Shown in pieces: positions 36,008 to 39,916 of a DNA stretch of 42,923 nt. Numbering within the stretch: the first letter of the stretch is position 1; each line of letters begins with the position of its first letter. The notes under the pieces are model-generated. The model ran no database searches. It was not told the DNA's origin and saw only the letters and a list, made by a program, of their open reading frames with translations. Source of the stretch: Bacillota bacterium (GTDB lineage Bacteria > Bacillota > Clostridia > Acetivibrionales > JANLFN01); contig JAUZPR010000013.1 in assembly GCA_030705825.1 (NCBI GenBank), forward strand, positions 1-42,923, read 5' to 3'. Position numbers and translations under genes: made by a program.

Positions 36008-36142
36008 ATTGACAATTGAGAATGGAGAATTGATAATTAGCTAATATTAATTCAATAATCCATTTTTATAAAATTGTCACAATAAAATATTTTAAAACGA
36101 GTTAGTAATTCTCAATTGTCAATTCTCAATTGTCAATTGAAA
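36008..36142. repeat. Mirrored heptad-repeat element between rpsG and fusA
   Basis: Left arm: ATTGACA ATTGAGA, then ATGGAGA ATTGATA (36008-36035). Right arm: ATTCTCA ATTGTCA twice in tandem, then ATTGAAA (36108-36142). AATTGACAATTGAGAAT (36007-36023) is the perfect 17-base complement of both 36108-36124 and 36122-36138. TTGACA (36009-36014) and GATAAT (36032-36037) inside the left arm are 17 bases apart and could be a promoter. The element ends about 20 bases before the AAAGGAGG of fusA. Confidence 0.85.
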
Positions 36143-36175
36143 TACGACTATCGTGACACGAAAGGAGGAAGTAAA

Positions 36176-38245
36176 ATGCCCAGGCAGTACAGTTTGGAAA
36201 ATACCAGAAACATCGGTATCATGGCACATATAGATGCCGGAAAAACAACCACTACTGAACGTATTCTGTTTTATACAGGAAGATTGCATAAGATGGGAGA
36301 GGTTCATGAAGGCGCTGCAACGATGGACTGGATGGAACAAGAGCAGGAAAGAGGTATCACAATTACTTCAGCTGCCACTACTGCAGAATGGAAAGGCAAT
36401 AGAATCAATATTATTGATACGCCGGGGCACGTTGACTTCACGGTTGAAGTTGAAAGGTCACTTCGCGTTCTCGATGGTTCAGTAACAGTTTTCTGTGCAA
36501 AGGGAGGCGTTGAACCCCAGTCTGAAACCGTATGGAGACAGGCTGACAATTATAATGTTCCCCGACTTGCATATGTAAATAAAATGGACATTATGGGTGC
36601 AGATTTTTATAACTGTATACAAATGATGAAGGATAGACTTAAAGCAAATGCTGTTCCGATTCAGTTGCCCATAGGAAAAGAGGATAATTTTCAGGGTATA
36701 GTGGATATTGTAACCCTCAAGGCTTTTTTCTTCAAAGACGATCTTGGGAAAATTATTGAAGAAGGGCCTATACCTGACGATATGAAAGAAATGGTTAAAG
36801 AATATCGTAATGGTTTACTCGAAGCTGTTGCTGAACTAGATGAAGAATTAATGATGAAATACCTTGAAGGCGAAGAACTTACCGAGGAAGAAATACGTGA
36901 AGGTATCAGAAAGGCTACTATAGCTGTTAAGATGATTCCGGTAACATGCGGTTCATCATACAGAAACAAGGGTGTACAACAGCTGCTTAACGCAGTTATT
37001 GATTACATGCCTTCACCGCTTGATGTTCCACCTATAAAGGGTGTTTCACCTGACGATGCTGATGAGGAATTGGAAAGACCTGCAGATGATGACGGACCAT
37101 TCTCAGCTTTGGCTTTCAAAATTATGGCAGACCCTTATGTTGGAAAGCTTTGCTTCTTTAGAGTATATTCCGGTAAATTAAGTAACGGTTCCTATATTCT
37201 TAACTCTACAAAGAACAAGAGAGAGAGAGTAGGAAGAATACTTCAGATGCATGCAAACCACAGGGAAGAAATAGAGATGGTTTACTCAGGTGATATCGCT
37301 GCTGCAGTAGGATTGAAGGATACAACTACCGGAGATACCCTCTGCGATGATACCAATCCTGTAATTCTTGAGTCTATGGAATTCCCGGAACCGGTTATTC
37401 ATGTTGCAATTGAACCAAAAACAAAAGCAGGACAGGAAAAAATGGGTCTTGCACTTGCAAAACTGGCTGAAGAGGATCCGACTTTTAAAACTCACACAGA
37501 TCCTGAAACAGGTCAAACAATTATTGCGGGTATGGGAGAACTGCATCTTGAAATAATTGTAGACCGTATGATGAGGGAATTCAAGGTTGAGGCCAATGTC
37601 GGTAAACCTCAGGTTTCATATAAGGAAACCATACGTAAGGCTGTTAAGGCAGAAGGTAAATTTGTAAGACAATCAGGTGGTAGAGGACAATACGGACATT
37701 GCTGGATCGAACTGGAACCACAGGAACCAGGTACAGGTTTCATCTTTGAAAACAAGATTGTTGGAGGAGTTATTCCGAAAGAGTATATTCCTGCAATAGA
37801 AGCCGGTATAGAGGATGCTATGAACAATGGCGTACTTGGCGGATATCAGGTGCTTGATATAAAAGCAAGACTTGTAGACGGTTCGTACCACGAAGTTGAC
37901 TCTTCAGAGATGGCATTCAAAATTGCAGGATCCATGGCTTTCAAGGAAGGCTGCCGCAAGGCCGACCCAACATTACTCGAACCTATTATGAGAGTTGATG
38001 TTGTTGTACCTGAAGAATACATGGGTGATGTAATGGGTGATTTGAACTCAAGAAGAGGCAGAATTGAAGGAATGGAGGCAAGGGCAGGTGCTCAGGTAAT
38101 AACTGCGCATGTTCCTTTGGCTGAAATGTTCGGATATGCAACCGATCTTCGTTCAAAAACCCAGGGTAGAGGAGTTTACTCAATGCAGTTCGGCCACTAT
38201 GACGAGGTTCCGAGAAGCATTCAGGAAACCGTCTTAAAGAAATAA
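36176..38245 (+). CDS. fusA: Elongation factor G
   Basis: EF-G drives ribosome translocation and, with RRF, recycling. The 689-residue GTPase has P-loop AHIDAGKT (17-24), switch [27 protein letters not shown], then domain II and domains III-V with [14 protein letters not shown] and the C-terminal [16 protein letters not shown]. It is full length. ATG 36176 follows AAAGGAGG at 7-base spacing; the longer frame from 36116 runs through the repeat element. No clear terminator follows; instead a 415-base structured spacer leads to tuf. Confidence 0.98.
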
Positions 38246-38660
38246 TTATATCTTTCGAATGTATTATGCAGTATATTGCAATAATGCAAATATATGTGTA
38301 AAATATTCATGGACTGTAAACTTTTGCAATGGCTGTACATATACAGTTTTGTGCAGCCATAGCTTCAGTTGCAGGAAATAAGTTAAAAATATTTCCTGCA
38401 GTTATATAAGTTGAACTAAGATTTTAATATTAATTATGTCCCTAAGGCCGGACATAATAGAATTTTCAATGAACTTAGTACAACTTATTACAGATGTAAT
38501 AAAATGAAGTAAAAACTAAATTGATGCTATTTGCATTTGGCTTTAGAAATGCAAATATTGTATAAGAAATTTACTTCATTTTATCTAGATCAAAAATAAA
38601 ATAATTAATAAATCTACTTTATCAGTATTGCTTACTGAAAAAAAGGAGGAGAATTTAATA
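38246..38660 (+). other. Structured spacer between fusA and tuf
   Basis: There is no open frame. At least five dyads follow one another. TTGCA/TGCAA is at 38276-38289. ATGGCTG/CAGCCAT is at 38329-38360. TGCAGGAAATA/TATTTCCTGCA is at 38370-38400. A two-layer dyad spans 38406-38488. Another two-layer dyad with 15-bp outer and 10-bp inner arms spans 38499-38584. None ends in a good T run. A TTGTAT-17-TTATCT pair (38558-38586) could be a weak promoter for tuf. Confidence 0.65.
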
Positions 38661-39863
38661 ATGGCAAAAGCTAAATATGAAAGAAGTAAACCCCACGTAA
38701 ATATCGGTACTATAGGTCACGTTGACCACGGTAAGACTACTTTGACAGCAGCCATCACTAAGGTATTGGGTTTTCAGGGTAAAGCAGAATTCATGGCATA
38801 TGACATGATAGATAAAGCTCCTGAAGAAAGAGAAAGAGGTATTACTATTAATACCGCTCACGTTGAATACCAGACAGAAAACAGACACTATGCTCACGTT
38901 GACTGCCCAGGCCATGCCGACTATGTTAAGAACATGATTACAGGTGCAGCTCAGATGGATGGTGCTATACTCGTTGTTTCCGCAGCTGACGGCCCGATGC
39001 CCCAGACAAGAGAACATATTCTTTTGGCTGGTCAGGTTGGTGTACCATACATAGTTGTTTTCTTAAACAAGTGTGATATGGTTGATGATGAAGAACTAAT
39101 AGAATTAGTTGAGATGGAGCTCAGAGAATTACTCAGTTCATATGACTTCAACGGAGATGAAACTCCGATAGTTAGAGGTTCTGCACTTAAGGCTCTGGAA
39201 TGTACTTCAAAAGATACAAGCGCTCCTGAGTACAAGTGTATATTTGATCTGATGGACGTTGTTGATAAGTATATTCCAACTCCTGAAAGAGCAACAGACA
39301 AGCCTTTCATACTCCCAGTCGAAGATGTATTCTCCATCACCGGCCGTGGTACAGTTGCTACAGGTAGGGTTGAAAGAGGAGTAGTTAAGGTAGGAGACGA
39401 AGTTGAAATAGTTGGTTTGATGGATGCTCCAAGAAAGACTGTTGTTACCGGAGTTGAAATGTTCAGAAAGCTTCTTGATCAGGCAGTTGCAGGTGATAAC
39501 ATTGGTGTTCTCTTAAGAGGCATCCAGAGAAATGAAGTTGAAAGAGGACAGGTTCTTGCTAAACCAGGTTCCATTAAGCCTCACACTCATTTCAAGAGCC
39601 AGGTTTACGTTCTGACTAAAGAAGAAGGCGGAAGACATACTCCTTTCTTCAATGGTTACAGACCTCAGTTCTATTTCAGAACTACAGACGTTACAGGTGT
39701 TGCAGAACTTCCTCAGGGAACTGAAATGTGCATGCCTGGTGACCATATCGGAATGACTATCAAGCTCATAACTCCAATAGCTATGGAAGCTGGTTTGAAG
39801 TTCGCTATCCGTGAAGGTGGAAGAACAGTTGGTTCAGGTTCCGTTACAGAAATAATTGAATAA
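38661..39863 (+). CDS. tuf: Elongation factor Tu
   Basis: EF-Tu delivers aminoacyl-tRNA to the ribosome. The 400-residue GTPase has P-loop GHVDHGKT (19-26), switch [13 protein letters not shown], switch [19 protein letters not shown], and domain [19 protein letters not shown]. The start ATG 38661 follows AAAAGGAGGAG; an upstream in-frame ATG at 38628 precedes that site and is rejected. A strong terminator follows. Confidence 0.98.
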
Positions 39864-39878
39864 TTTCAATTAAACCAT

Positions 39879-39916
39879 AAAGGCCGGTATTTAATACCGG
39901 CCTTTAGTTATTTTTA
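39879..39916 (+). terminator. Intrinsic terminator of tuf
   Basis: Perfect AAAGGCCGGTAT (39879-39890) and ATACCGGCCTTT (39894-39905) stem with a three-base loop and a broken T run. Confidence 0.9.

Follow-up and report, generated by a model that had tools for sequence, protein, structure and literature searches.

The repeat unit of pneumococcus (RUP) is moved by IS630-Spn1 and has TA at its ends (PMC2229807, PMC3049150). The repeat described here, found between fusA and tuf of an Acetivibrionales bacterium, resembles RUP in being short, non-coding, intergenic and tightly folded, with IS630-like terminal inverted repeats (TIRs) and TA ends (PMC2229807, PMC3049150). RUP is a simple unit of 107 bp with about 108 copies and its IS630 in the same genome, whereas the element at tuf is 185 bp long, consists of two joined units and has about 7 near-complete copies in a genome where no IS630 was found. 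Correia/NEMIS, ERIC and Nezha MITEs, which can be transcribed within mRNAs, are likewise TA-flanked palindromes, but their sequences and hosts are different and the known effects on RNA processing are theirs. The literature searched contained no paper with the 185-bp repeat or with a tuf leader of this kind. Attenuators of the rpsL operon lie upstream of rpsL or fusA, not of tuf (PMC2965389).

Dyads between fusA and tuf

The window is the whole stretch of 42,923 nucleotides that was analysed. Its first-pass annotation described four successive structures at 38329-38584, all of which are present, and read them as a tuf leader of a new kind. The fusA-tuf spacer (417 nt) has a folding energy of -116.7 kcal/mol, which is lower by 8 SD than that of dinucleotide shuffles, and the longest perfect arm in 38329-38584 is 15 bp against a maximum of 12 bp in 500 shuffles. 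The dyads exist and greatly exceed what chance would give. The features of the region are:

36116-38245, + strand, fusA (EF-G)
38276-38304, + strand, candidate tuf promoter TTGCAA-17-TAAAAT, from the promoter scan
38326-38363, + strand, stem 1, native leader hairpin without copies elsewhere in the genome
38370-38400, + strand, stem 2, native leader hairpin TGCAGGAAATA/TATTTCCTGCA
38403-38587, + strand, putative whole bipartite MITE of 185 bp including TA at each end, from its dispersed copies and its absence from 29 relatives' spacers
38403-38420, + strand, left TIR TATATAAGTTGAACTAAG, repeated in the genome and common to IS630 elements
38406-38488, + strand, left unit (dyad 3), nested dyad, outer 8+6 bp, inner 9 bp
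38487-38500, + strand, junction of the two units, near-palindrome TTACAGATGTAA (TTACAGCTGTAA in four copies)
38499-38584, + strand, right unit (dyad 4), nested dyad, outer 15 bp, inner 11 bp
38570-38587, - strand, right TIR, TA GATAAAATGAAGTAAA read inward at the tuf copy, from the alignment of copies
38624-38640, + strand, hairpin TCAGTA[TTGCT]TACTGA proximal to the Shine-Dalgarno (SD) sequence, kept in the order
38661-39863, + strand, tuf (EF-Tu)

Stem 1, initially annotated with 7 bp, has 11 bp including one G-U (38329-38339/38350-38360) and 2 bp more outside. Stem 2 was re-found as a perfect 11-bp stem (38370-38380/38390-38400), and so was the two-layer dyad 3, whose outer arms (38406-38420/38474-38488) pair over 8+6 bp with one mismatch and whose inner arms (38433-38441/38450-38458) pair over 9 bp. 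Dyad 4 keeps its perfect 15-bp outer arms (38499-38513/38570-38584); its inner arms (38528-38538/38547-38557) pair over 11 bp and not 10. The first-pass annotation took none of the stems for a standard terminator. The promoter and terminator scan gave no terminator-like site in the leader, nor any terminator-like or above-chance promoter site within the 185-bp element. The Rfam scan of the window has no match in the tuf leader and reports only the ribosomal protein L10 leader (RF00557, 25264-25391, 71.7 bits). Directly 3' of tuf, a perfect 13-bp hairpin (39878-39906) is terminator-like on both strands.

The 185-bp repeat in the host genome

The host genome (G000, a 3.65-Mb draft in 242 contigs) was searched with the spacer. 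Matches are confined to 38402-38589, that is, to both nested dyads together, and these contigs contain no further copy of stem 1 or stem 2. Five further full copies, 85-96% identical, are found on contigs 195, 218, 179, 167 and 213, together with one internally deleted copy on contig 29 and about seven fragments (contigs 113, 3, 226, 177, 46, 185 and 176). Besides the one at tuf, at least six gaps of the genome harbour the repeat. The first-pass annotation had proposed a search for paired outer/inner dyads elsewhere in the genome and named nested units scattered as MITEs as a finding that would refute its reading and change the explanation; for dyads 3 and 4 this is what the genome shows, since they recur as one dispersed element.

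In the alignment of copies, similarity begins and ends at the TA edges and the flanks are unrelated. All copies whose neighbourhood was examined are intergenic. The element fits a MITE by its size (185 bp, under about 300 bp) and its lack of coding capacity, no ORF of at least 80 aa starting inside it, and also by recurring within one genome at several dispersed sites, always with the same ends. Comparison with plasmid records, phage records and viral contigs gave no match.

Pairing is well preserved among the seven copies, with 99% of pair cells kept. Both partners have changed in just 1 of 49 pairs, a weak covariation of the sort that a palindromic DNA parasite should show, so that the conservation of pairs says nothing for selection on RNA; an argument for RNA function from covariation within copies was rejected because the covariation is too small. 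These data bear on the idea that the element is a MITE by origin whose tuf copy was co-opted, for instance to direct RNase III processing of the fusA-tuf transcript or to stabilise it, following the precedent of Neisseria NEMIS and enterobacterial ERIC (PMC2229807). Its place in a leader that should be highly transcribed and its intact arms suit this proposal, which we nevertheless regard as unlikely, since a young insertion equally predicts intact arms and the tuf copy pairs no better than the others. An effect of the element on mRNA processing, by analogy with NEMIS and ERIC, is possible. The fuller scenario of a bipartite MITE of two sister IS630-type palindromes that spreads without a transposase in its own genome and was recruited into the tuf leader, where it would alter processing or stability of a very abundant mRNA, appears distinctly improbable.

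Element ends, IS630 relatives and the two-unit plan

The left end of the element is TA-TATAAGTTGAACTAAG, and its 18-mer occurs in the host genome 7 times exactly and twice with one mismatch, against 0 for a reversed control pattern. Read inward, the right end is TATATAAAATGAAGTAAA in most copies, from which the tuf copy differs by one change. This inverted right end is related to the left end TATATAAGTTGAACTAAG, the outer arms matching at 11/15 positions, so the whole element has terminal inverted repeats that are imperfect; within each half, the arms make a better inverted repeat of their own. The target of IS630 elements is TA, as with RUP and IS630-Spn1 (PMC2229807). Of the seven aligned copies, all have TA at the right edge and six have it at the left, although a TA target duplication and TIRs that themselves end in TA would look alike.

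The ends lead to an IS630 transposase gene through two loci, both in other genomes. In another clostridium (G230), a 424-bp IS630 remnant lies between TATATAAGTTGAACTAAA and TATATAAGTTAAACTAAA, which have 1 and 2 mismatches to the element TIR, and holds a disrupted helix-turn-helix fragment that resembles IS630 transposases at their N-terminus. A search with this fragment reached a complete IS630 element of 1152 bp in genome G150, with two open frames and ends TATATAAGTTCAATTAAT/TATATAAGTTCAATTAAA, each differing from the left end of the tuf element at 3/18 bases. The product of its second frame matches DDE_3 (2e-41) and the NCBI model for the IS630 family transposase (4.9e-44). The 242 contigs of the host draft gave no DDE_3 or IS630 transposase match, and it is other species that point to the mobilising IS; a relic does not need one in its own genome. 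Among IS630-like loci of the order, no ends close to the element TIR were found within the stretches examined. The 185-bp element is accordingly an IS630-type MITE of the class of RUP, ERIC, Correia and Nezha.

The paired hairpins of about 80 nt also resemble BIME-like pairs, which brings to mind palindromes of the REP/BIME or IS200/IS605 type, with a tyrosine (Y1) transposase as their mover. Association with Y1 transposases defines the REP-type elements, which are not known to show a TIR/TA pattern. The tuf element has true terminal inverted repeats, flanking TA and homology to IS630 ends, leaving this origin scarcely credible.

Single-unit MITEs with the same left end on both sides are found in other clostridia: at locus L022 (G029), the same DNA as L108 of Ruminiclostridium sp. 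MnB_11, at L076, and in Peptococcaceae bacterium CEB3 (L109). Locus L073 has a single-unit MITE with a decayed far end, and a Lachnoclostridium phytofermentans MAG (L110) carries a minimal TIR-bounded MITE of 46 bp. The single-unit MITEs with TIR TATATAAGTTGAAYTAAG (L022/L108, L109, L110) share the outer terminal repeat and nested plan of the tuf element, but have one unit instead of two and an inner hairpin TGTCATTCTGAGCG.. or none. The same outer TIR accompanies an inner hairpin TGTCATTCTGAGCG../..CGCTCAGGATGACA at L022 (693-811), L073, L076 and L109, in several clostridial families. Other TIR matches were set aside as chance, at L070/L071 as what is, by its similarity, a shared coding stretch and at L112 and L114 because no second end was found. 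The host genome itself holds, on contig 11 (L136, about 1500-1545), the minimal palindrome TATAAAATGAAGTAAATATTTTATAGTATTTACTTCATTTTAT, which is the right-unit arm alone. This palindrome of 44-48 nt is near-perfect and lies 20-30 nt upstream of a HAD-like hydrolase gene.

We infer that two sister MITEs were joined and then spread as a pair, which would yield two nested units with shared architecture and unlike sequence. The initial remark that both units have the same architecture and different sequence is explained in this way, the end sequences of the two sister MITEs matching at 11 of the 15 positions.

The native tuf leader

The fusA-tuf spacers of 29 relatives measure 73-279 bp and all are without the element. 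When 38405-38587 is removed from the window with one TA kept, a 232-bp spacer is left that aligns across the junction with the relatives' spacers, best with L059, L050 and L062. The insertion site lies between stem 2 and the SD-proximal hairpin, and the insertion at tuf is evidently recent or lineage-specific.

Native spacers of relatives carry hairpins of varied sequence. By inspection, a AAGTATAAAATATTC-like block similar to the candidate promoter is present in several of them (L040, L044, L050, L058). Stem 2 is of the CAGGAA..TTCCTG type, as are hairpins of L050, L059 and L065-L067. Spacers of L050, L057, L059 and L064-L068 have a CAGGRA..TYCCTG hairpin without U-tract and with a varied upper stem. 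The SD-proximal hairpin (UCAGUA..UACUGA in RNA) has a loop of 3-7 nt and ends 4-8 nt 5' of the tuf SD. Of 30 genomes of the order (L039-L068), about two thirds have it, the share of relatives with each leader feature being judged partly by eye. Compensatory changes give its variants CCGGT..ACCGG (L045, L053), TCAGTT..AACTGA (L067) and CAGTGA..TCACTG (L048). Conservation upstream of tuf with compensatory change, as a tuf leader should have, is thus found for this hairpin, and not for dyads 3 and 4, which the 29 relatives' spacers lack.

As dyads 3 and 4 form a single dispersed element that the relatives' spacers lack, the chain of four dyads is not one structure. A structured tuf leader was partly right, its parts being only stems 1 and 2, which belong to the native leader region, where relatives have hairpins too, and a third hairpin, at 38624-38640, that the first-pass annotation does not mention. 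That all four structures would act together as a dedicated tuf leader RNA, an attenuator or a protein-binding leader, could draw on the very stable fold, the location between the candidate promoter and the tuf SD, and the native stems 1, 2 and SD hairpin. We hold it to be highly improbable in view of the recurrence of dyads 3 and 4 before or between unrelated genes of the same genome, their absence from all relatives' fusA-tuf spacers examined, and a leader with neither terminator-like site nor Rfam match.

We very strongly favour the reading of dyads 3 and 4 as a single IS630-type MITE, non-autonomous, composed of two palindromic sister MITEs end to end and inserted at a TA of the fusA-tuf spacer between stem 2 and the SD-proximal hairpin, with stems 1 and 2 as a separate native leader. 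An IS630 transposase acting in trans would have bound the ends of the element, which would have been cut and pasted into the TA of the spacer. At tuf it is now probably an immobile relic, given that no IS630 transposase is detectable in the genome. If co-transcribed, it would extend the 5' untranslated region of tuf by two long hairpins and have at most a passive effect on mRNA stability.

For the most part, the element in the tuf spacer is common genomic litter rather than a novel switch of gene control, and a striking structure at tuf is thereby struck from the list of candidate riboregulators. It indicates that joined MITEs can yield nested perfect dyads with unrelated inner sequences, and documents an IS630-type MITE family with one end sequence in several clostridial families. 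Of the native part that remains, the compensating hairpin just 5' of the tuf SD offers a more modest lead that can be tested.
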